DNA of 64,000 nucleotides from positions 62,001 to 126,000 of the forward strand of contig CANCXM010000005.1 of the NCBI GenBank assembly GCA_947381945.1, in the 5' to 3' direction. The stretch is from an uncultured Muribaculaceae bacterium. GTDB lineage: Bacteria; Bacteroidota; Bacteroidia; Bacteroidales; Muribaculaceae. Made by a program: the position numbers and the translations under genes. Under the pieces are notes generated by a model, which saw only the letters and a list, made by a program, of their open reading frames with translations, was not told the DNA's origin and ran no database searches. This document shows, in pieces, positions 1,911 through 62,571 of the stretch. Positions within the stretch are counted from its first letter, which is position 1; each line of letters begins with the position of its first letter.

Positions 1911-2153
1911 TTTTCTTCCTGACGGCTGCCTGTCTGAAGGCAGACAAGTCTGGATAACGGACGCGGAAATACCGCGTCTGTATGGTCTTGTGCGCAAAAA
2001 AAAGTTACCGATGGCTGAAAACTTGGGAGCTGCGCGCCCCCAAACCCCGCGATGTGTTTTTCATATTTCTTCTATCCAGCATGATACGCTGGAAAGCATC
2101 TGCTTGTCTACAAGTGTTAAATTTGTTAATTCTCTTGCATTGCAACATAGAAT
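1911..2153. other. Non-coding stretch between IS110 region and tonB
   Basis: No gene recognised. It holds two small hairpins, one around CTGCCTGTCTGAAGGCAG (about 1925-1942) and one around CCAGC...GCTGG near 2077-2093. The right end of the IS110 element probably lies in or just before this stretch but cannot be fixed. Confidence 0.4.
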
Positions 2154-2250
2154 AAGGACATAAGTTCAGAAGGCACATAAGTTTATTCAGCTATTTGATT
2201 GTACAAGTAAGCTTTATATAAACTTATGTGCCTTCTGAACTTATGTCCTT
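2154..2250. repeat. Word-repeat hairpin A (32-bp perfect arms)
   Basis: Arms 2154-2185 and 2219-2250 are perfect inverted copies around a 33-nt loop. The arm is made of words such as GACATAAG, TTCAGAAG and CACATAAG, and the loop begins TTCAGCTATTTG. It sits just past the tonB stop and can serve as terminator of the minus-strand operon. The same design recurs at 18223-18414, 35820-35952 and, in degenerate form, at 15911-16206 and 47619-47725. Confidence 0.85.
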
Positions 2251-2286
2251 ATGTCCTTATGTGCCCTTATTTACCTTGCAAGAGTT

Positions 2287-3096
2287 TTACTTGAAGTTGT
2301 AGGTGATGATTCCGGTCTGGGTGGCGGGAGCATCCTCGTCGACCGAGAACTGCGAACGCTTCGCAGCCTCGATGCAACTCTGACGGGCCGACTGGCTTGC
2401 AGCAGCCGCTCCCGTGCCGGACTGATAGCTGGCAGCCGTCACACGACCCTGACGGTTGACACTCACACGGATGGTAATAGTACCCAGGGGAGCTGAAGCG
2501 GGACGGTGCCAATCCTCAAGAGTGCGGCCTTTAAGATTGAAACCGGGACTGCCGCTGACGGCACCGACCGTAGCGTTTCCATTAGGACTGCCGGCACTTC
2601 CGGAACCCGATTTCCCTGTCCCGGTCTGGCCGAATTTGACCTTTCCGGCAATCGCCTGACGCGTTTCCTGTTCGCGCTTTGCCTTTTCGGCAGCGGCTAT
2701 CTCTGCCTTGGTCGGACCGGTCTTCTCGGGAACAGCCTTCTTCTCAACCTTCGCGGGCGACGGGCGTTCGCTGCTCACGACAGGAGCCGGTTTTGCCTCC
2801 TCGCCGGAATTTTCGAGAGCCTCAACCTCAGGAGCGGGAACTGCCTCAGCCTCTGTCTCGGCAGGAGCCGGTTCGGAGTTGGCTTCCGCTATTTCCGGAC
2901 GGTCACCGACCATCACATATTCACCGCCGAAAAGCACTTCTGCAGAATCGACAGGGGGCCAGACGCGTTCGGAATCAACAGCGACCGGACGCAGATAAAT
3001 GGTGAGCAAAGCCACAACCACGAGAACGTGGAAGAGCACTGTTACAAGCAAAGCTATCAGATGGTGACGGCGACGGTCACTTCCGGTGTCAGACAT
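2287..3096 (-). CDS. tonB: TonB energy-transducing protein
   Basis: A 269-aa inner-membrane-anchored periplasmic protein that passes proton-motive-force energy from ExbB/ExbD to outer-membrane receptors. One membrane segment is at residues about 13-35 (LIALLVTVLFHVL onwards), then a long Pro/Glu/Ala/Lys linker (about 60-160) and a Gly/Ser-rich stretch. The C-terminal domain (about 190-269) has TITIRVSVNRQGRV and ends GIITYNFK. It is last in a minus-strand group after exbB and exbD, the expected arrangement. The C-terminal sequence is divergent from E. coli TonB but typical of Bacteroidota proteins in this position. It probably serves the SusC-like and STN-type receptors of the cell. Confidence 0.85.
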   Translation of the reverse strand: MSDTGSDRRRHHLIALLVTVLFHVLVVVALLTIYLRPVAVDSERVWPPVDSAEVLFGGEYVMVGDRPEIAEANSEPAPAETEAEAVPAPEVEALENSGEEAKPAPVVSSERPSPAKVEKKAVPEKTGPTKAEIAAAEKAKREQETRQAIAGKVKFGQTGTGKSGSGSAGSPNGNATVGAVSGSPGFNLKGRTLEDWHRPASAPLGTITIRVSVNRQGRVTAASYQSGTGAAAASQSARQSCIEAAKRSQFSVDEDAPATQTGIITYNFK

Positions 3097-4355: not shown

Positions 4356-4393
4356 TACTTTATACTTAATCCTTTATACTTTATACTTAATAC
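4356..4393. repeat. Low-complexity TTTATACTTAAT spacer
   Basis: The 40-base gap between pdxJ and exbB is filled by three overlapping copies of TTTATACTTAATnC. The same vocabulary appears at 15700-15745 after the SusF gene. Confidence 0.7.
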
Positions 4394-5107
4394 TCACCTC
4401 AGACATTCCTTATACTCCCTGATTGTCTTCTCCAGACCGAGATAGAGCGCATCGCAGATGAGCGCGTGGCCAATCGAAACCTCGCTCAGACGGGGAATGT
4501 TGCGGTGGAAAAACTCAAGGTTGACAAGGCTGAGGTCATGACCGGCGTTCACGCCAAGTCCGGCCGAGAACGCTGCATGGGCAGCCTCGACGAAAGGAGC
4601 CACGGCAGCCTCGGGATCTTTCGGATAAAGGTCCGCGTAAGGTTTGGTGAAAAGCTCCACACGGTCAGCGCCCGCACGGGCTGCAAGCTGAATGTTCTCC
4701 ACATCCGTGCCGACAAAAATCGACGAACGGATACCTGCATCGCGCAGACGGTCGACAATCGAGGTCAGAAACTCGATGTGCTCACCGACATCCCAACCCG
4801 CATTCGAAGTGATGGCACCCGGAGCATCGGGCACAAGAGTCACCTGCTCCGGCTTCACCTGAAGCACAAGTTCCATGAATTCCGGCGAGGGATAGCCCTC
4901 GATGTTGAACTCCGTCTTGACCAACGGACGGAGACGATACACATCGTCGCGGCGGATATGGCGCTCGTCGGGACGGGGATGCACCGTGATGCCGTCGGCC
5001 CCGAAAGCCTCGCAGTCTGCCGCCACTTTAAGGAGGTCAGGCACATTCTCACCTCGCGCATTGCGCAAAGTGGCTATCTTGTTGATGTTTACGCTTAGAT
5101 TTGTCAT
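4394..5107 (-). CDS. pdxJ: Pyridoxine 5'-phosphate synthase
   Basis: A 237-aa cytosolic TIM-barrel enzyme that condenses 1-deoxy-xylulose 5-phosphate with 3-amino-2-oxopropyl phosphate in the DXP-dependent vitamin B6 pathway. Family signatures are visible: [16 protein letters not shown] at the N-terminus, [27 protein letters not shown] and [10 protein letters not shown] near the end. I start at MTNLSVN (5107); an in-frame ATG four codons upstream is possible. It leads the pdxJ-exbB-exbD-tonB run. A TAATTTTG-type -7 box on the minus strand at 5213-5206 could drive it, although no clear -33 box is seen. Confidence 0.93.
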
Positions 5108-5625: not shown

Positions 5626-5741
5626 TGTAGATGCATGGTTCATGATTCATGATGCATAGTTCATGATGCATGATTGAATTCCTTGCGGAATGTATAAACA
5701 TAGTGCATACAATATAATAGTAATAGCTTACTGTAATAGAT
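5626..5741. repeat. CATGATTCATGATG word-repeat spacer before nadK
   Basis: The gap holds a run of near-identical words (TTCATGATTCATGATGCATAG and similar, about 5638-5676), itself close to palindromic, followed by an AT-rich stretch leading into nadK. No gene or clear promoter is seen. Confidence 0.6.
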
Positions 5742-13976: not shown

Positions 13977-13990
13977 AAAAACAATTCAGT

Positions 13991-14102
13991 TGTAGGGACG
14001 CGCTGTAGCGCGTATGCCGGATGAATTTGCACAAATTTCCAATGGCATCCCGAGAATAATTCCGGATTTCACCCGGCATACGCGCTACAGCGCGTCCCTA
14101 CA
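13991..14102. repeat. 30-bp inverted repeat, REP-like, between SusE- and SusF-like genes
   Basis: TGTAGGGACGCGCTGTAGCG with its continuation (13991-14020) is perfectly inverted at 14073-14102 around a 52-nt spacer. Each arm itself contains the palindrome ACGCGCTGTAGCGCGT. The GC-rich arms contrast with the AT-rich spacer. In the operon mRNA it would form a strong hairpin after the SusE-like stop. Confidence 0.85.
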
Positions 14103-14151
14103 TCGGATTCACTCCATTCTACATTCAAAATCAGTATCACAACAAACAATA

Positions 14152-15627: not shown

Positions 15628-15652
15628 GTATTTGTTTAGGATAGAGATTTTA

Positions 15653-15745
15653 TGTTAAGTATAGAGGTTAAAGTATAGAGTATAGAGCAATAGCACTTAA
15701 AACTCACAACTTAATACTTTATCCTTACCACTTAATACTTAAAAA
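15653..15745. repeat. AAGTATAGAG / CTTAATACTT word-repeat spacer
   Basis: After the SusF-like stop come words AAGTATAGAGG, AAGTATAGAG and TATAGAG, then complementary words CTTAATACTTTATC and CTTAATACTT. The two halves could pair imperfectly. Confidence 0.5.
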
Positions 15746-15910: not shown

Positions 15911-16206
15911 AAAAAAAGAGATACAAAAGCGAAGAATGGGAGATACAAAAGATACAAAAGAGCATAAGAGACAAAAGTTTTATATATAGCAGATGGATAC
16001 TCTACCTAATCATATCCTATCCGACCTATATGTCCTCTCCGACCTCTTATATCTTTTATATCCTATAATTCCCCTCTGATTACCCCCTTCTGTCCCTTTT
16101 GCCCTTCTGTTCTTTTGTATCTCTCCCCTTTTGTTCCTTTTGCCCTTCTGTTCTTTTGTATCTCCCCACCCCTTCTGTCCCTTTTGCCCTTCTGTTCTTT
16201 TGTATC
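15911..16206. repeat. Word-repeat array with three 25-bp direct copies upstream of GH51
   Basis: The left part (15917-15977) has four GATACAAAAG/GACAAAAG words on the plus strand. The right part has complementary words, including three perfect copies of a 25-mer that begins TTTTGCCCTTCTGTTC (16097-16121, 16138-16162, 16182-16206; spacing 41 and 44). The halves can pair as a large imperfect hairpin with a tip near TTTTATATATAGCAGATGG. It belongs to the same word family as the hairpins at 2154, 18223 and 35820. Confidence 0.8.
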
Positions 16207-16238: not shown

Positions 16239-18212
16239 ATGAATCTCAGATCAACCCTACTCACTGCCGCGCTTCTCGCCGGGGCGGTCTCCGGAATGAA
16301 CGCCGAAGAATTCGTCATCCGCACCGACAAGCCCGGAGCCACAGTGCAACCCACCATGTATGGCCTCTTCTTCGAGGACATCAACTATGCGGCCGACGGC
16401 GGACTCTATGCCGAGATGGTCAAGAACCGCTCCTTTGAATTCCCACAGTCACTCATGGGTTGGGAAAGCTCAGGCAAAGTCAGCGTCCGCGACGACGGCC
16501 CCTTCGAGCGCAACCCCCACTACGTCCGACTCTCCCCTCCCGGCCACGGACACAAACGCACTGCCCTCACCAACGAAGGCTTTTTTGGGGTAGCCTTCCG
16601 CAAGGGGGAGGAATATCGTTTCAGCGTGTGGGCACGCAGCGCCGGTGACCGCCCGTCCAAAATCAGAGTCGAGCTGACCGACCCCGCCGCACTGGGCGAG
16701 ACACAGGTGATGGCAAGCGCCACAATCGACATCACCGGCGGAGAGTGGAAGCGCTACACCGCCATGCTCATCCCCAAGAAGACAGTCAGCAAGGGGAGTC
16801 TGCGAGTGTTCCTCGACTCAAAGGAGGCCTGCGACCTCGAACACCTCTCACTCTTCCCGACCGACACATGGCAGGGACATGAGAACGGTCTGCGCAAGGA
16901 CCTCGCGCAGAAACTCGCCGACATCCGTCCCGGACTGCTCCGCTTCCCCGGCGGCTGCATCGTCGAGGGAACCGACCTTGCCACACGCTATCAGTGGAAA
17001 AACTCTGTCGGCCCCGTCGAAAACCGTCCGCTCAATGAAAACCGCTGGCACTACACCTTCCCCCACCGCTTCTTCCCCGACTATTACCAGAGCTACGGAC
17101 TCGGATTTTTCGAATACTTCCAGCTCGCCGAGGAGATAGGTGCCGAACCCCTCCCCGTCCTGAGCGTAGGCCTTGCCTGCCAGTATCAGAACAAGGGGAT
17201 GGACGCACATGTCCCCGTCGACAGCCTCCAGCCCTATATTGACGACGCTCTCGACCTCATCGAGTTTGCCAACGGCCCCGTCACAAGCGAGTGGGGCAAA
17301 CTCCGCGCCGACATGGGCCATCCCGAGCCGTTCAAACTCAAATTCATCGGCATCGGCAACGAGCAGTGGGGCCCGGAGTATCCCGAACGCCTCGAACCCT
17401 TCATGAAAGCCATCCGCGCGAAGTATCCTGACATTCAGATTGTAGGCTCGTCCGGCCCGAGCGCATCCGGCGAGAAGTTTGACTACCTCTGGCCTGAGAT
17501 GAAGCGACTGAAAGCCGACCTCGTCGACGAGCATTACTATTGCCCCGAAGAGTTCTTCCTCACCCAGGCCGACCGCTACGACTCGTATGACCGCAAAGGC
17601 CCGAAAGTCTTCGCCGGGGAATATGCCTGCCACGGCAAGGGGAAGAAATACAACCATTTCAACGCCGCCCTCATGGAAGCCGCCTTCATGACCGGTCTGG
17701 AACGCAACGCCGACATCGTGCAGATGGCCACCTACGCTCCGCTCTTCGCCCATGTCGAGGGGTGGCAGTGGCGACCCGACATGATATGGTTCGACAATCT
17801 CAACTCCATCCCGACCGCAAGCTACTTCGTGCAGCAGCTCTACTCCACCCATAAAGGTTCCCGTGTCCTCCCCCTCACCATGGAAGGCAAGCCTGTCACC
17901 GGAGCCGAGGGTCAGAACGGCCTCTACGCATCGGCTGTCGTCGATGATGCAAGCGGTGAGTATATCGTCAAAGCAGTCAACACCACCGACTCTCCCCGCG
18001 AGCTGACACTCCGCTTCGACGGCATGAAGAAGGGTCGCAAGCTGACGGAAGGACGCGCCATCACCCTCTCGTCGGATGACCCGGATGCCGACAACACTCT
18101 TGACAATCCCACACGCATCCGCCCGGTAGAAACCACCCTTACCCTCCCCGCCTCCGGCCCCCTCACCGTCACCATCCCCGCCAAAACCTTCGGAGTCTAT
18201 ATCCTGAAATAG
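16239..18212 (+). CDS. GH51 alpha-L-arabinofuranosidase with CBM-like domain
   Basis: 657 aa with a signal peptide (to about 22). A carbohydrate-binding jelly-roll domain (about 70-205) is inserted before the TIM barrel, as in many bacterial GH51 enzymes. The acid/base Glu is E375 in GIGNEQWG and the nucleophile is E461 in VFAGEYACHG. RFPGGCIVEG (about 235-244) is the conserved substrate-site motif. It would release terminal arabinose from arabinan or arabinoxylan side chains in the periplasm. It is separated from the SusF-like gene by a terminator, so it may be an independent unit. Confidence 0.92.
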   Translation: MNLRSTLLTAALLAGAVSGMNAEEFVIRTDKPGATVQPTMYGLFFEDINYAADGGLYAEMVKNRSFEFPQSLMGWESSGKVSVRDDGPFERNPHYVRLSPPGHGHKRTALTNEGFFGVAFRKGEEYRFSVWARSAGDRPSKIRVELTDPAALGETQVMASATIDITGGEWKRYTAMLIPKKTVSKGSLRVFLDSKEACDLEHLSLFPTDTWQGHENGLRKDLAQKLADIRPGLLRFPGGCIVEGTDLATRYQWKNSVGPVENRPLNENRWHYTFPHRFFPDYYQSYGLGFFEYFQLAEEIGAEPLPVLSVGLACQYQNKGMDAHVPVDSLQPYIDDALDLIEFANGPVTSEWGKLRADMGHPEPFKLKFIGIGNEQWGPEYPERLEPFMKAIRAKYPDIQIVGSSGPSASGEKFDYLWPEMKRLKADLVDEHYYCPEEFFLTQADRYDSYDRKGPKVFAGEYACHGKGKKYNHFNAALMEAAFMTGLERNADIVQMATYAPLFAHVEGWQWRPDMIWFDNLNSIPTASYFVQQLYSTHKGSRVLPLTMEGKPVTGAEGQNGLYASAVVDDASGEYIVKAVNTTDSPRELTLRFDGMKKGRKLTEGRAITLSSDDPDADNTLDNPTRIRPVETTLTLPASGPLTVTIPAKTFGVYILK

Positions 18213-18222
18213 CCCCCAATAT

Positions 18223-18414
18223 CTGAGAAGGGTACATAAGCTCCGGCTGGAAGGGCACATAAGGACAAAAGGTCAGAAAAAACAGAAGTTTTTTATTTCA
18301 GCTATTTTTTGTATTTGTTCCGGATAAATAATTTAGCCGAAACGATAATACCGATAAACTGAAATAAAAAACTTCTGTTTTTTCTGACCTTCTGTCCTTA
18401 TGTACCCTTCTCAG
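18223..18414. repeat. Word-repeat hairpin B between convergent GH51 and GH28 genes
   Basis: The left arm (18223-18301) and right arm (18359-18414) share an almost perfect inner stem of about 40 bp and an outer stem CTGAGAAGGGTACATAAG. The left arm carries a 23-nt extra piece (CTCCGGCTGGAAGGGCACAT and three more bases). Tip sequence is TTTATTTCAGCTATTTTTTG. It lies at the 3' ends of two convergent genes and can terminate both. Confidence 0.85.
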
Positions 18415-18470: not shown

Positions 18471-19919
18471 TTACATTGCGTTGCCGTTAATCTTGAGATT
18501 GGTGAAGCGGAGGTCGGCAGCCTGACCGTTGAGGAGGAAAGCACCCTTCTCCACACCGTCAAAGCTCGAATTCTTCACCTCAACGTTAGTCACGTTGCAG
18601 CGGTCATCGTAAGCATCGATATAGACACCATACTGGCTCTTCTTGCAGTTCACGTTGTCGAGATAGACATTGCGCACGATAGGAGCATAGCCACGGTTGC
18701 AGATTTCTTTCGGATCATAGATAAGATTGATTTTGAGGACAGCTTCCTTGCACTGACCGACCTCAACGTTGCGCACATAGATATTCTCGATGATACCGCC
18801 ACGGCAGTTGTTGGTCTTGATGCGGATGACGCGGTCGAGAAGCGGAGAATCCATCTGGCAGTTCTCCACGAAGAGGTTGCGGTAGCCGCCGGAAATCTCG
18901 CTGCCGACAACAACGCCGCCGTGACCGTTCTTCATGCGGCAGTTGCGCACGATGATATTCTCGGAGGGACGACCGTCGCGACCGTCGCGGTTACGACCGC
19001 TCTTGATAGCGATGCAGTCATCACCGGTGTCAAAATAGCAGCCTTCGATAAGCACATTCTTGCAGGCATCGGGGTCACAGCCGTCACCGTTGGGGCCATC
19101 GTTCTGGACATGCACGTTGCGGACAATCACATTGTCGCAGAGAGCGGGATGGATAACCCAGAAGGGTGAGCGGAGCATGGTCACACCCTCGATGAGCACA
19201 TCCTTGCACTCCATGGGATTGACGAGCTGCACACGCATACCGTAGCCGTCGCCGAGGATGCGCTGCTCAACGGGCACACCTTTCTCGTTCCATTCGAGGA
19301 GGAGCGGACGGCCTATCTTCTGAGAAACGATGCCTTCCTTCCAGCCGAAGTGGGGAGCACCACACATGCGCCACCAGTTTTCAAACTTGCCGCCGCCGTC
19401 GAGCGTACCCTTGCCGGTGATGGCTATGTTCTGCTGCTGATAGGCATAGACCATGGGCTGATAGTTGTAGCAATCGACACCTTCCCAACGGGTGCGGACG
19501 ATGGGATACTCCTTGAGATCGGGAGTGAAAAGGAGTGTGGCACCCTCTTCGAGATGGAGGTTCACATTGCTCTTGAGAGTGATGGGGCCTGTGAGCCATG
19601 TACCCTCAGGGATGATGACACGGCCACCGCCTTCACGCGAGCAACGGTCGATGACCTTGTTGATAAGCTCGGTATAGAGATAGCCCTCGGTGTTAGACTT
19701 CTTTCCATACTTGAAGATGGGATAGTCTTTGTCGCGGAAAGTCGGGGTCTTGATGGCCTTCTCGATTTCGGGATAGAGTTCGGCCCATGCCTTTTCGGCA
19801 TTCTGAGTGTAGGCCGCGATCTTCTCTTTTGCGGATTTCGACTGTGCCGAAGCGGTCCCGGCCAAGCCACCGCCACCGATCGCACATGCAAGCAGTAATG
19901 CAATAACTGATTTCTTCAT
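18471..19919 (-). CDS. GH28 polygalacturonase-type glycoside hydrolase
   Basis: 482 aa with a signal peptide ending near TASAQ (26). The parallel beta-helix carries the four GH28 motifs: NGDGCDPD (277-284), GDDCIAIKSG (299-308) with the paired catalytic Asp, GHGG (332-335) and RIKTN (366-370). Such enzymes cleave alpha-1,4 galacturonan or act as exo-galacturonidases or rhamnogalacturonidases; the precise specificity cannot be read. It neighbours a GH51 arabinofuranosidase, which suggests pectin side-chain and backbone breakdown. A minus-strand promoter lies upstream. Confidence 0.92.
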   Translation of the reverse strand: MKKSVIALLLACAIGGGGLAGTASAQSKSAKEKIAAYTQNAEKAWAELYPEIEKAIKTPTFRDKDYPIFKYGKKSNTEGYLYTELINKVIDRCSREGGGRVIIPEGTWLTGPITLKSNVNLHLEEGATLLFTPDLKEYPIVRTRWEGVDCYNYQPMVYAYQQQNIAITGKGTLDGGGKFENWWRMCGAPHFGWKEGIVSQKIGRPLLLEWNEKGVPVEQRILGDGYGMRVQLVNPMECKDVLIEGVTMLRSPFWVIHPALCDNVIVRNVHVQNDGPNGDGCDPDACKNVLIEGCYFDTGDDCIAIKSGRNRDGRDGRPSENIIVRNCRMKNGHGGVVVGSEISGGYRNLFVENCQMDSPLLDRVIRIKTNNCRGGIIENIYVRNVEVGQCKEAVLKINLIYDPKEICNRGYAPIVRNVYLDNVNCKKSQYGVYIDAYDDRCNVTNVEVKNSSFDGVEKGAFLLNGQAADLRFTNLKINGNAM

Positions 19920-34334: not shown

Positions 34335-35780
34335 ATGGGAGGTTTCTTCGGCTCCATTTCGACCAAACCCTGTGTCAATGAGCTTTTTTACGGCACAGAT
34401 TACCATTCACACCTCGGGACCAAACGCGCCGGTCTCGTCACTTTTGACCCCGAGCATGGTTTCAACCGCACCATCCACAGTCTCGAACGCGATTATTTCC
34501 GTTCAAAATTCGAGGACGAGCTCGACAGATTTGTCGGCTGTCAGGGACTCGGCGTGATAAGCGACACAGACCCTCAGCCAATCATCGTCAACTCTCACCT
34601 CGGACGCTATGCAGTAGTAACAGTCGCTAAAATCAACAACATCCGTGACATCGCCGCAGAACTGCTGGCCGAGAGGATGCATTTCAGCGAGCTTTCAGCC
34701 AACAACATCAACCAGACAGAACTCGTCGCGCTGCTCATCAACATGGGCAAGGACTTCGTCGACGGCATCAACCTCGTCTACAAAAAAATCAAGGGTTCAT
34801 GCTCGATGCTCATCCTGACGGAAGACGGCATCATCTGCGCACGCGACTATCTGGGACGCACCCCCATCGTCATCGGCAAGAAGGAGGACGGCTATGCCGC
34901 CGCAAGCGAGACTGCCGCATTCCCCAACCTCGGTTACACAACCGTGCGCGACGTAGGCCCGGGCGAAATCATCCGTCTGCGCGCCGAAAGCATGGAAGTG
35001 CTCCAGGCTCCTGCACGCCGCGAACAAATCTGCTCATTCCTCTGGGTCTACTACGGCTTCCCTGCCAGCGACTATGAGGGAATCAATGTCGAGCACACCC
35101 GCGAGGCCGGTGGCCGCAAGATGGGTCAGGAAGACCCCACCGAGGCTGACTGCGTATGCGGAATTCCCGATTCAGGCGTAGGCCATGCCCTCGGTTATGC
35201 CGAAGGACGCGGAATCCCCTACCGCCGTGCCGTGTTGAAATACACCCCGACATGGCCCCGAAGCTTCACACCGGGCAACCAGTCGCGCCGCGACCTTGTG
35301 GCTAAAATGAAACTCATCCCCAACCGTGCCATCCTCGACGGCAAGCGTGTGGTGTTCTGCGACGACTCAATCGTCCGTGGCACACAGCTCCGCGACAACG
35401 TCCGCACCTTCTTTGAATGTGGTGCCAAAGAGGTCCATGCACGCATCTCATGCCCTCCGCTGGTCTACGGCTGCCCCTTCATCGGCTTCACATCCTCAAA
35501 GAGCGACCTTGAACTCATCACCCGCCGCATCATCAAGGACTTCGAAGGCGACGATGCTGCCAAACTCGACATCTACGCCACAACCGGCACCCCGGAATAT
35601 GAGCGCATGGTCAAGGAAATAGCCCGTCAGCTCGAACTCACCACCCTCCAGTTCAGCAAAATCGAGAATCTCATCGAGAGCATCGGTCTTCCCAAATGCA
35701 AGCTCTGCACCCACTGTTTCGACGGCTCCGGCTGTCACCCCGACGAGGCATGGCGAGAAGACCATCCGGACGCTGAATAA
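34335..35780 (+). CDS. PurF-like amidophosphoribosyltransferase lacking Cys1
   Basis: 481 aa. The phosphoribosyltransferase domain is intact, with the PRPP loop VVFCDDSIVRGTQ (339-351). Cysteines at 233, 380 and 455/458/461 match the places where Bacillus-type PurF binds a [4Fe-4S] cluster. The N-terminal glutaminase-like domain starts MGGFFGSIS instead of MCGIxGI, so the Cys nucleophile needed to split glutamine is a Gly. No downstream Met puts a Cys at position 2. It may use free ammonia, receive it from a partner, or have a different role. Bacteroidota carry such a paralogue alongside a normal PurF, as far as I recall. Single-gene unit. Confidence 0.85.
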   Translation: MGGFFGSISTKPCVNELFYGTDYHSHLGTKRAGLVTFDPEHGFNRTIHSLERDYFRSKFEDELDRFVGCQGLGVISDTDPQPIIVNSHLGRYAVVTVAKINNIRDIAAELLAERMHFSELSANNINQTELVALLINMGKDFVDGINLVYKKIKGSCSMLILTEDGIICARDYLGRTPIVIGKKEDGYAAASETAAFPNLGYTTVRDVGPGEIIRLRAESMEVLQAPARREQICSFLWVYYGFPASDYEGINVEHTREAGGRKMGQEDPTEADCVCGIPDSGVGHALGYAEGRGIPYRRAVLKYTPTWPRSFTPGNQSRRDLVAKMKLIPNRAILDGKRVVFCDDSIVRGTQLRDNVRTFFECGAKEVHARISCPPLVYGCPFIGFTSSKSDLELITRRIIKDFEGDDAAKLDIYATTGTPEYERMVKEIARQLELTTLQFSKIENLIESIGLPKCKLCTHCFDGSGCHPDEAWREDHPDAE

Positions 35781-35819
35781 TCTTCCTTGAATTTTAAGGG
35801 TACAGAAATAAAATTTAAG

Positions 35820-35952
35820 GGTACAGAAATTCATAAATAACAGAAGTAACAGATTTTATTGAGCCGTTTGCGTCAAGGCAAATTCTGACCTTGGCAATTT
35901 TAATGGCAGACAATAAAATCTGTTACTTCTGTTATTTATGAATTTCTGTACC
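35820..35952. repeat. Word-repeat hairpin C (42-bp perfect arms)
   Basis: Arms 35820-35861 and 35911-35952 are perfectly inverted around a 49-nt loop. The arm reads GGTACAGAAATTCATAAATA then ACAGAAGTAACAGATTTTATTG. A second partial copy of AAGGGTACAGAAAT precedes the left arm at 35796. It lies between convergent genes (PurF-like and PagL-like). Confidence 0.9.
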
Positions 35953-35967
35953 TTTTCGCTACGGTTT

Positions 35968-37188
35968 TCAGCGGCGGTCGTGGAAACGGTAGCCCACGCC
36001 TATCATCAGATTGTTAGGATTCTTGAAACTGTTGAGCTGATAGCCGATGTGGAGAAAGAAGCTGCGCGTCAGATATGCCTTCAACGCAAGCACCTGATAG
36101 AAATTCTTCGCATCACTGTTGCCAATGAAATTGTAGCCCATGCCCGCATTTATCGAAAAAATCGGCATGACAAGCTCACCACGCGCCGAAAGCCCCCATG
36201 AGACCTGATGGAAGAACGGTGGCCGATAAAACTTGACGTCTTCGTCGGTCCCACCGGCCCAGTAACTGTCTATATCTGAACTTTCGTCATACTGCACATC
36301 GAGCGATACACCGGCCCTAAGAAATCGGTTAAAGTTATACATCGGAGCAAAATTCAATCCGGCTATGCCGAAGTGTCCGGGCAGCACTTGTGGCCAATCA
36401 TCAATATCAGTCATCTTTTTCCTGACAGCGCCATAAATCACAAGGTCGTAGCTGATATGAGGCTTAACCGGCTCAATCTCCATATTGTCGGCGAGAGTTC
36501 CGGTCTGAGACCCACTATTGAAAGTGTAGACCACACCGGCACGACCTCCAATCATATTCACGCCGGGATTTGGCCACGAGGTATTGCCGTTGGAATAATG
36601 AGTCATATCCACGCCAGCCACGACGTTCCATCTGTCCGACAAACGATAGTTCAACATAAAACCGAGATTTATGTATGCATTAATAGGTGAGCCCACAATT
36701 ACATTAATCGGATTGTCATGTTCGTTATACCTCTTCCATCCGAAAGAAGCACCGAAGTTCCATTCATAGTCAAATGTCAACTTAGGAGCTATACGGAATA
36801 CGGGCGCCCCCTGGAACAGATAGGCACTGACAGGCATTCCTGTCAACCCGTTCGCAAAGAAGCTCGTTCCACCGACACCTATTCCTTGATAAGCTCCCGG
36901 ATATAACCTACCGGTCCTCGTCATATCAGAATAAGAGAAAGAATATTTCAGATGGAGAGAAGCCGCCGCATCACGCTCAGGCCCACCTATGTAAGCATTA
37001 CTCACCGCCTCGCGTTCGGGTGCGACATAGTCGCCTCGCACATCAACCCCGAAATGATGGACTATCCTTGCCGAATCACCATCCACCACGGCATCCATAT
37101 AGCGGCAACCCATCATCACCATCGCCACGACGGCCATTACCCGCAAAGCCTCCGACCTGCGGATGACACTTTCAAATATCAGCTTCAT
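35968..37188 (-). CDS. PagL-like acyloxyacyl hydrolase (lipid A deacylase family)
   Basis: 406 aa. The N-terminus has a hydrophobic export signal (RVMAVVAMVMMGC) with a possible lipobox. The rest is beta-strand rich, and THYSNGNTSWPNPG (about 190-203) matches the HxSN motif that holds the catalytic His and Ser of PagL. Such enzymes remove 3-O-linked acyl chains from lipid A in the outer membrane. At about 400 aa it is longer than Pseudomonas PagL (about 170), as is usual in Bacteroidota. Its start overlaps the upstream lipoprotein gene by 17 bases, so the two are co-expressed. Confidence 0.8.
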   Translation of the reverse strand: MKLIFESVIRRSEALRVMAVVAMVMMGCRYMDAVVDGDSARIVHHFGVDVRGDYVAPEREAVSNAYIGGPERDAAASLHLKYSFSYSDMTRTGRLYPGAYQGIGVGGTSFFANGLTGMPVSAYLFQGAPVFRIAPKLTFDYEWNFGASFGWKRYNEHDNPINVIVGSPINAYINLGFMLNYRLSDRWNVVAGVDMTHYSNGNTSWPNPGVNMIGGRAGVVYTFNSGSQTGTLADNMEIEPVKPHISYDLVIYGAVRKKMTDIDDWPQVLPGHFGIAGLNFAPMYNFNRFLRAGVSLDVQYDESSDIDSYWAGGTDEDVKFYRPPFFHQVSWGLSARGELVMPIFSINAGMGYNFIGNSDAKNFYQVLALKAYLTRSFFLHIGYQLNSFKNPNNLMIGVGYRFHDRR

Positions 37189-47618: not shown

Positions 47619-47725
47619 TGAAAAGGGTACAGAATGACAGAAGCTCAGAAGATACAAAAAGATTAATTTCAGCAAATTATATTTCTGTTACTTTTGTTTA
47701 TTCTGTTCTTTTGTATCTCTTTTCA
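47619..47725. repeat. Word-repeat hairpin D (degenerate) in the ECF operon leader
   Basis: The left side has AAAAGGGTACAGAATGACAG then AAGCTCAGAAGATACAAAAA, the tip ATTTCAGCAAATTATATTTC, and the right side TTCTGTTACTTTTGTTTATT then CTGTTCTTTTGTATCTCTTT. Arms are complementary only in part. Same words and same TTTCAGC tip as the perfect hairpins. Confidence 0.65.
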
Positions 47726-47815: not shown

Positions 47816-47928
47816 TAGACATCCATCAGCAGACATCCAAAAAAGCAGCAATTAGTCATGATTAAACACCAATACATCGTCCAAAACCACCAATCCGAAC
47901 AAATCCCTTCCACTATTCATACGAACCT

Positions 47929-48036
47929 CAGCCAAATTGGGTAATGAAAATCAGCCAAATTGGGTAATAAAACTCAGCCAAATTGGGTAACGAAACTCAG
48001 CCAAATTGGGTAACGAAACTCGGCCAAATTGGGTAA
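47929..48036. repeat. Five 23-bp tandem repeats with CCAAATTGG core
   Basis: CAGCCAAATTGGGTAA starts at 47929, 47952, 47975, 47998 and (as CGGCC...) 48021, an exact 23-bp period. The joining bases vary (TGAAAAT, TAAAACT, CGAAACT). CCAAATTGG is a perfect odd-length palindrome. The array lies between the minus-strand ECF promoter and the plus-strand aspS promoter, with no gene. Confidence 0.9.
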
Positions 48037-48185
48037 TAGAATTCTAATCGCCTACTGTTAAAGAAAATAGGGCGTATCTTCAAAAATGGAGAATCTATTA
48101 TAATATTCAAGCAACGAATATTACAATTTCTCGATCGAAATCTCAGAAATTATTATTCCAACATACAACCCTGATTAATTATTTT

Positions 48186-48316: not shown

Positions 48317-50080
48317 ATGTATAGAACGAAAACATGCGGCGAACTCCGACTCAGCGATGCGGGTCAGGAAGTGACCCTCGCCGGCTGGGTGCAGCGCGCC
48401 CGCAAGATGGGTGGTATGACCTTTGTAGACGTGCGTGACCGCTACGGTATTACTCAGGTGGTGTTTAACATCGAGAATGACGCCGCGCTCTGTGAGGCCG
48501 CCAATCACCTCGGACGTGAATTCGTGGTTCAGGTGACAGGCAAGGTCGCCGAGCGCACAAGCAAGAATCCCAATCTTCCGACCGGCGACATCGAAATCAT
48601 CGCCACTGAGCTGAAGGTGCTCAACCGCAGCGATGTGCCCCCGTTCACCATCGAGGACGAGACCGACGGCGGCGATGACCTCCGCATGAAGTACCGCTAC
48701 CTCGACCTGCGCCGCAACTGCGTGCGCGCCAACCTCGAACTGCGCCACCGCATGGCCTTCGAAATCCGCCGTTACCTTGACTCGAAGGGCTTCCTCGAAG
48801 TGGAGACTCCGGTCCTCATCAAGTCTACTCCCGAAGGTGCGCGCGACTTCGTTGTCCCCTCGCGCATGAATCCCGGTGAATTCTACGCTCTTCCCCAGTC
48901 GCCCCAGACTTTCAAGCAGCTCCTCATGGTCAGCGGATTCGACCGTTATTTCCAGATTGTGAAATGTTTCCGCGACGAAGACCTCCGCGCCGACCGTCAG
49001 CCCGAATTCACCCAGATTGACTGCGAGATGTCGTTCGTCAATCAGGAAGACGTGCTCAACATGTTCGAAGGTCTCGTGAAACACATCTTCAAATATGTCA
49101 AGGACATCGACTTCACCGAGCCTTTCCCCCGCATGACATGGGCCGACGCCATGCGCCTCTACGGTTCCGACAAACCCGACACCCGCTTCGGCATGGAATT
49201 TGTCGAAATCAAGGACCTCACCGGTGGCAAGGGCTTCGCAGTGCTTGACGATGCCGAATATGTCGGTGCCATCGTAGCCCCCGGCTGCGCTGACTACACC
49301 CGCAAGCAGCTCGACCAGCTCACCGACTTCGTGAAACGCCCGCAGGTAGGTGCCAAGGGCATGATGTGGGTCAAGGTCGAGGCCGACGGCTCAATCAAAT
49401 CGTCCGTTTCCAAATTCTACAGCGAGGACGACCTCCGCACTTGGGTTGAACGCTGCGGTGCCAAACCCGGCGACCTCATCCTCATCCTCGCAGGTCAGAC
49501 AATGAAGACCCGCAAGCAGCTCTGCGAACTCCGTCTCGAAATGGGCTCACGCCTCGGACTGCGCGACCCGCAGAAGTTCTCATGCCTCTGGGTCATCGAC
49601 TTCCCCCTCTTCGAATGGGACGAGGAAACACAGCGCTACTACGCCATGCACCATCCCTTCACCTCGCCCAACCCCGACGACATCCACTTGCTCGACAGCG
49701 ACACCGGTGCAGTACGCGCAACTGCCTACGACATGGTTGTCAACGGCAACGAGCTCGGCGGCGGTTCAATCCGTATCCATGAAGCCGAGCTTCAGGACAA
49801 GATGTTCCGTCTGCTCGGCCTGAGCGAAGAGGACGCACAATATAAGTTCGGCTTCCTCATGAATGCCTTCAAGTATGGCGCACCCCCTCACGGAGGTCTC
49901 GCATTCGGTTTCGACCGCTTCGTCAGCATCCTCGCCGGCCTCGACTCAATCCGCGACGTGATTGCCTTCCCCAAGAACAACTCCGGCCGCGACATGATGA
50001 TTGACGCACCCGCGGCAATCGACGATTCACAGCTCGACGAGCTCTGCATCCGTCTTGACCTCAAGGACGAAAAGAAATAA
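48317..50080 (+). CDS. aspS: Aspartyl-tRNA synthetase
   Basis: 587 aa class II synthetase. The N-terminal OB fold ([20 protein letters not shown], about 17-36) binds the anticodon. Class II motif 2 is [16 protein letters not shown], and motif 3 is [18 protein letters not shown] near the end. A bacterial GAD insertion domain lies in between. Length is typical of bacterial AspRS. The nif3-like gene starts 7 bases after its stop. Confidence 0.97.
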
Positions 50081-62530: not shown

Positions 62531-62540
62531 GGAGTAGATA

Positions 62541-62571
62541 GTTGTGAGTTGTTAGTTTTGAGTTGTCAGTA
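62541..62571. repeat. GTTGTGAGTTGTTAGTTTTG word-repeat spacer
   Basis: The gap between two minus-strand genes holds GTTGTGAGTTGTTAGTTTTG and AGTTGTCAGTAGTT, a run of near-identical words. Same style of spacer as at 4356-4393, 5626-5741 and 15653-15745. Confidence 0.6.

Follow-up and report, generated by a model that had tools for sequence, protein, structure and literature searches.

Word-built hairpins at gene 3' ends in a Muribaculaceae genome: probable gene-less copies of hairpin elements that carry a GxxExxY gene in related genomes

Hairpins of the window and their family

The window, a stretch of 64,000 nucleotides from an uncultured Muribaculaceae bacterium (G000:C5:62001-126000; genome G000 is 3.15 Mb and 99.4% complete), contains three long intergenic hairpins with arms built from short ACAnAAG-like words, two degenerate word elements and one array of a second word family; genes were called with a simple codon-based gene caller. 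The features are as follows.

2152..2252, no strand assigned: word hairpin, arms 2152-2186 and 2218-2252, 35 bp, 100% complementary
18250..18410, no strand assigned: word hairpin, arms 18250-18301 and 18359-18410, 52 bp, 96%
35817..35955, no strand assigned: word hairpin in the ACAnAAAT/TCAnAAAT dialect, with arms at 35817-35861 and 35911-35955, 45 bp, 98%
15911..16206, no strand assigned: degenerate word element whose decayed 5' arm has words at 15917-15977 and whose 3' arm is repeated in tandem at 16084-16206 (41 bp x 2.9)
47619..47725, no strand assigned: degenerate word hairpin with imperfect arms and a TTAATTTCAGC tip
15640..15745, no strand assigned: array of words from the second family (AGTATAG/TTAAAGT ... 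ACTTAATAC), shared with the flanks of the IVP-like gene of G000

The hairpin at 2152..2252 has a loop of 31 nt with a TTCAGC tip and lies 3' of a minus-strand ORF (2287-3096); a direct repeat resembling its 3' arm continues beyond it to about 2270. Convergent ORFs (16239-18212, plus; 18471-19919, minus) flank the hairpin at 18250..18410, and ORFs 34335-35780 (plus) and 35968-37188 (minus) flank that at 35817..35955, in which 42 bp of the 45-bp arms are perfect. RNA folding z-scores were -12.8 for 2140-2265, -17.1 for 35815-35957, -9.9 for 18245-18391 (a segment that ends 19 nt before the 3' arm does) and -6.25 (about -6.3) for 47619-47725, with no shuffle as good in any of the four. These results bear out the three main hairpins and two degenerate sites picked out by a first-pass annotation of the window, the site at 15911-16206 through its 5' words and tandem array. 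Five tandem 23-bp units (GAAACTCAGCCAAATTGGGTAAT) are also present at 47923-48037, upstream of an ORF at 48317.

The same annotation had supposed a genome-wide family, and the genome holds one: pairs of ACA[A/G/T]AAG words at most 4 nt apart gave 121 matches (55 + 66) compared with 2 (1 + 1) for the reversed pattern, and 50 hairpins with such words were recovered when contigs C1-C5 (about 0.79 Mb) and targeted stretches were scanned for inverted repeats. From the outside inwards, an arm reads GATACAnAAG or GGGTACAnAAG, then GACAnAAG or CACAnAAG, then TCAnAAG or GCAnAAG, then RRACAnAAG, and ends in TTTTTT(ATT)TCAG or ATATATA, so that the catalogue of arms upholds both the shared words and the T-rich inner border proposed earlier. 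This four-word grammar (TACAnAAG, GACAnAAG, TCAnAAG, RRACAnAAG, T-run) is common to related species, and a relative within the genus, G014, follows it in a flavour of its own. A second dialect, ACAnAAATTCAnAAAT, which includes the site at 35817, occurs 28 times in G000, 23 times in G002 and 16 times in G007; the ACAnAAG pattern misses dialects, and G007 scores 0 by it, yet has ACAnAAAT hairpins. The distribution of word hairpins within the genus is patchy and several orthologous intergenes are empty. At the Rfam gathering score no hairpin of the window was matched, the one match being to a tRNA, which agrees with the earlier impression that no described family has this design.

Pairing of the arms

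Arms had been described as matched within a site and variable between sites. In G000 arm identity was 0.929 within sites and on average 0.764 between sites, and the variable letter of a word was the same in both arms in 114 of 129 cases, where 42.9 were expected and 61 was the maximum of 2000 permutations. Hairpins were detected by an arm similarity of at least 80%, so these identities are biased upward; a hairpin is still detectable with every variable letter mismatched. The nearest other site reached an identity of 0.924, and within-site identity was the higher of the two in 20 of 39 sites. The nearest other site is about as similar as the partner arm because one sub-family (GATACAAAAGCACAAAAGAGCATAAG...) consists of dispersed near-copies. 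These lie at unrelated loci, many are 88-95% identical, and their arms are asymmetric, with arm-to-arm differences that recur from copy to copy. Inspection by eye of the flanks of the dispersed copies listed gave no consistent target duplications, and no insertion was caught between near-identical strains. The corresponding identities in G014 were 0.977 within sites, 0.814 between sites and 0.928 for the nearest other site, with the within-site value higher in 12 of 15. The description of arms as matched within a site and variable between sites is therefore right but incomplete, one sub-family being a dispersed repeat; as both compensated sites and a transposed repeat are present, both of the alternatives first put forward occur.

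Mismatches between the arms of co-directional sites, read on the transcribed strand, were G.U in 33 cases and A.C in 18 when all sites were included (p=0.049), and 17 versus 5 when the dispersed sub-family was left out (p=0.017; 22 mismatches in all). Such an excess is as expected if the RNA matters, and it lends partial support to the proposal that the arms are kept paired by selection. It also bears on the idea that arms have no function and are kept identical in DNA by template switching or intra-strand correction at replication, with words spreading by slippage. That process would account for the arms of G014, most of which are 100% identical and which reach 68 bp at 100% identity, and for the way in which one arm is duplicated in tandem 41-bp units at 16084-16206; we nevertheless consider it quite unlikely, given the preponderance of G.U over A.C on the transcribed strand, the conservation of the four-word order and of the outer and inner borders across species and phyla, and the confinement of the hairpins to gene 3' ends.

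Position after genes and exchange with terminators

The first-pass annotation placed most hairpins between convergent genes. This was not upheld: of 48 hairpins, 15 were in convergent and 33 in co-directional intergenes, and the rule is a position 3' of at least one gene. None was in a divergent intergene, compared with 50 of 231 wide gaps in the background (p=1e-5), and the outer arm mostly begins 10-60 nt past a stop codon.

Orthologous gene ends were compared within the genus for three sites of the window, with classes assigned by reading the sequences. At the 2152 site, G007, G025, G011 and G019 have canonical hairpins, G020 and G017 have GTAG-REP pairs and G002 has another word hairpin. 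The orthologues of the 18250 site carry a canonical terminator in G020, G017, G025, G002, G019 and G011, and a word hairpin in G007; those of the 35817 site carry a canonical terminator in G017, G025, G002, G008 and G012, a word hairpin in G014, a decayed one in G007 and an AGTATAG word hairpin in G020. With an insensitive detector that found few terminators anywhere, none of 54 gene ends with a word hairpin gave a canonical terminator, compared with 10% of 287 other probable ends of operons (p=0.012).

Word hairpins resemble intrinsic terminators in forming a strong RNA hairpin soon past the stop codon and in occupying the same place at orthologous gene ends; they differ in their much longer stems, their AT-rich words and the absence of a U-run, and do not have the GC-rich stem followed by a U-run that defines a terminator. 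As no T-run follows the stem (the T fraction is 0.31 in the 10 nt past the hairpin), they are not called classical intrinsic terminators. Insertion into the loop of an existing terminator hairpin was considered and rejected as a general account: outer flanks were complementary (score of at least 8) at 10 of 71 sites compared with 3.6 expected, and these stem largely from the outer repeats of the dispersed sub-family itself.

The hairpins could have arisen in place as native 3'-end RNA hairpins that terminate transcripts or stabilise mRNA, their shared words being selected for a bound protein or RNase. Their location, their replacement of terminators at orthologous sites and the G.U excess all fit this, but the near-copies dispersed over unrelated loci, with their asymmetric arms, do not, nor does the patchy distribution in one genus or the finding, described below, that the same words flank a nuclease gene. 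We regard an entirely native origin as unlikely.

Mobile repeats offer a further comparison. REP/BIME sequences with their RAYT enzymes are likewise palindromic and present in many copies, lie 3' of genes and avoid divergent intergenes, and the gene of the cognate enzyme is flanked by the repeats (PMC3733652); the word arms differ in consisting of tandem words and in having GxxExxY as the candidate enzyme. It is very unlikely that the word hairpins are elements of the REP/BIME or MITE type mobilised by a transposase, whether RAYT/Y1 or that of an IS acting in trans, even though they share with REPs the palindromic, multi-copy form and the 3' position, never between divergent genes (PMC3733652), and GTAG-REP pairs coexist in G000. 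At 99.4% completeness G000 gave 0 matches to Y1_Tnp/RAYT (PF01797) while control families matched; the catalogued word arms show no short (20-40 bp) GC-rich palindrome with a GTAG or CGTC tag next to it; and what the relatives have between matching arms is a GxxExxY gene. The GTAG-REP (BIME-like) look-alikes of G000, which has no Y1/RAYT gene, are pairs of inverted GTAGGGACGC... palindromes, one of them in the window at 13986-14107 and others at C1:86674, 150943, 156568 and 158358, C3:48127, C4:19710 and 57728, and C5:4906. ACAnAAAT-dialect hairpins are nested in inward-facing pairs at C3:48127-48436 and C4:57728-58049. The TAACTGA heptamers also form intergenic arrays of short words, with a patchy distribution across Beggiatoaceae, Cyanobacteria and Bacteroidetes, but those repeats are direct and mostly stand immediately before start codons, whereas the word hairpins are inverted and 3' of genes (PMC4679880).

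GxxExxY genes between word-built arms

One hairpin of G014 holds in its loop an ORF of 125 amino acids (L136:1489-1866) that belongs to the GxxExxY family (PF13366, E=3e-36; TIGR04256, E=3e-37); at the orthologous site of G000 (C25:20436) there is also a hairpin, but its loop is short. GxxExxY genes also lie among ACAnAAG words in G009, G028 and G002 (frame-broken), the words of G028 forming repeated units and not one clean arm pair. The family reading made from the window was therefore right as far as it went and incomplete, since the gene in the loop is invisible from the window alone; with it, the hairpins look like gene-less mobile elements. No GxxExxY gene was found in G000, so that a trans-acting factor for its copies is inferred from the relatives, and G007 has word hairpins and no GxxExxY gene. 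Within the family, full-length GxxExxY genes occurred in 4 of 5 word-rich versus 3 of 32 word-poor genomes (p=0.002), counting the G002 copy as full-length despite one stop. Among the word-poor genomes, G006 has its GxxExxY gene flanked by CGCAGAG words, and G027 and G029 show no clear arms around theirs. G056, from another family, has 56 ACAnAAG matches, but those of its GxxExxY arms that were read use other words, so the link between the hairpins and GxxExxY is not universal.

Two side observations concern these loci. A further word, ACAGGAG, occurs after or beside elements in G014 (L108 and L123) and G009 (L149), the GxxExxY gene that it flanks in G009 being broken. At L139 (G028:C4) a ACAAAAGGACAAAAG-word unit is directly repeated on either side of the GxxExxY gene, possibly a trace of how copies arise.

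GxxExxY loci were also collected in one scan of named genomes, drawn from one clade of the protein family; the 80 loci come from Bacteroidota, Ignavibacteria, Chloroflexi, Nitrospirota, Nitrospinota, Cloacimonadales, Patescibacteria and Proteobacteria, as labelled in record titles, which are mostly of metagenome bins and may be wrong. Inverted word arms (score of at least 16) were found at 47 of 79 testable loci. Reversing the flanks gave 0, and combining flanks taken from different loci gave 12, the latter because words are shared; ordinary small genes of G000 gave 0 of 58. The consensus of an arm is roughly ATAGAACACnGAT GACnCnGAT TnAACnGAT TTnCACnGAT TTTT, again some four words whose middle letter varies, and by eye these arms resemble the ACAnAAG arms, a likeness that is not a test of homology. 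The left (upstream) gene reads into 58 of 66 loci (the left alone at 28, the right alone at 2), so the ORF is in the sense of its upstream neighbour. No phage copies were found, and plasmid copies amounted to 6 records at less than 60% identity; this near absence is odd for active mobile DNA and counts against a mobile-element reading.

The invariant residues of the protein (E27, D66, E76, K78, Q90 and Y94 in the numbering of the G014 ORF) are consistent with a PD-(D/E)XK nuclease with a QxxxY motif. A structure model of a related protein, L236 (pLDDT 93.5), had Cas4 SSO0001 as its best PDB match, followed by AdnAB, lambda exonuclease and Hjc, at modest TM-scores of 0.4-0.5; a PDB sequence search with GxxExxY gave no match. 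GxxExxY thus fits a predicted PD-(D/E)XK nuclease of the Cas4/RecB type. The family is named by its motif alone and is touched on in passing by two open-access papers; nothing in the open-access literature searched links it with repeats.

A second word system accompanies the genes of 23S rRNA intervening sequences (IVSs). Published IVSs are selfish elements that have complementary sequences at their borders and contain an S23p ORF, and they are cut out by RNase III; that of Coxiella burnetii has tandem GACAGAT heptamers before the ORF (PMC4990558). In the same set of genomes, IVP genes (PF05635) show the same layout, with inverted flanking words of their own, of another type, which in G000 and G006 are AGTATAG. 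The 23S-IVP-like gene of G000 (C37:21140-21454, L164) is flanked by the words of the array at 15640-15745 in the window. Counts of AGTATAGAGTATAG were 76 in G000, 58 in G006, 50 in G012, 13 in G017 and 13 in G020, with 0 for the reversed pattern. Intergenic tandem arrays of other 7-nt words, TACTTTA, GATTCAT and AGTTGTG, occur in the window at 4356-4394, 5630-5675 and 62540-62570, and are possibly more dialects of IVP-type elements.

Like the IVSs, the word elements have a small, often decaying ORF in the loop of a long hairpin and a sporadic distribution, and they are comparable in sense orientation inside a host transcript and in tandem words, heptamers in the IVSs (PMC4990558). IVSs differ in being inserted in rRNA helices 9, 25 and 45, while the word hairpins follow protein genes: the copies in the catalogue have protein-coding ORFs on both sides, and none is in a helix of 23S or 16S rRNA. 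No S23p/IVP ORF was found in an ACAnAAG loop, the gene of the relatives being PF13366 and not PF05635, with a different fold, that of a PD-(D/E)XK nuclease; and word elements number dozens per genome, most with no gene. The word hairpins work like REP/RAYT and rRNA IVSs combined; as they lack the defining features tested for each, they are filed in neither.

Taken together, we think it probable that the hairpins of the window are gene-less copies of IVS-like selfish hairpin elements that now serve as 3'-end RNA hairpins in place of terminators. A full element would comprise two inverted arms, each of about four words of 7-9 nt, and a loop with one small gene, GxxExxY. Lying just past a host gene and usually in the same sense, it would be transcribed by read-through, placing the gene in the loop of an RNA hairpin. 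The GxxExxY protein would recognise its own word-built arms and so aid the formation of new copies, most of which would have lost the gene, with none left in G000. The hairpins that remain may owe their lasting pairing to a role as the 3' end of neighbouring transcripts; they would replace ordinary terminators, an exchange seen at orthologous sites, and could act in termination or in protection of the 3' end. Cutting by RNase III is likely, by analogy with the rRNA IVSs.

More broadly, these may be members of an undescribed and widespread class of mobile elements in which a GxxExxY nuclease gene lies in a hairpin of lineage-specific words, copies are made at the 3' ends of genes, gene-less ones among them replace terminators and the 23S rRNA IVSs are one branch; this we put forward tentatively, as a reading that falls somewhat short of probable. 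GxxExxY, so far a family named for a motif, gains a context and a testable role, and a link is drawn between intergenic word hairpins, the heptamers in the IVS of Coxiella and the origin, so far unexplained, of rRNA IVSs. The findings suggest that the ends of bacterial genes turn over, with mobile hairpins being swapped for terminators.
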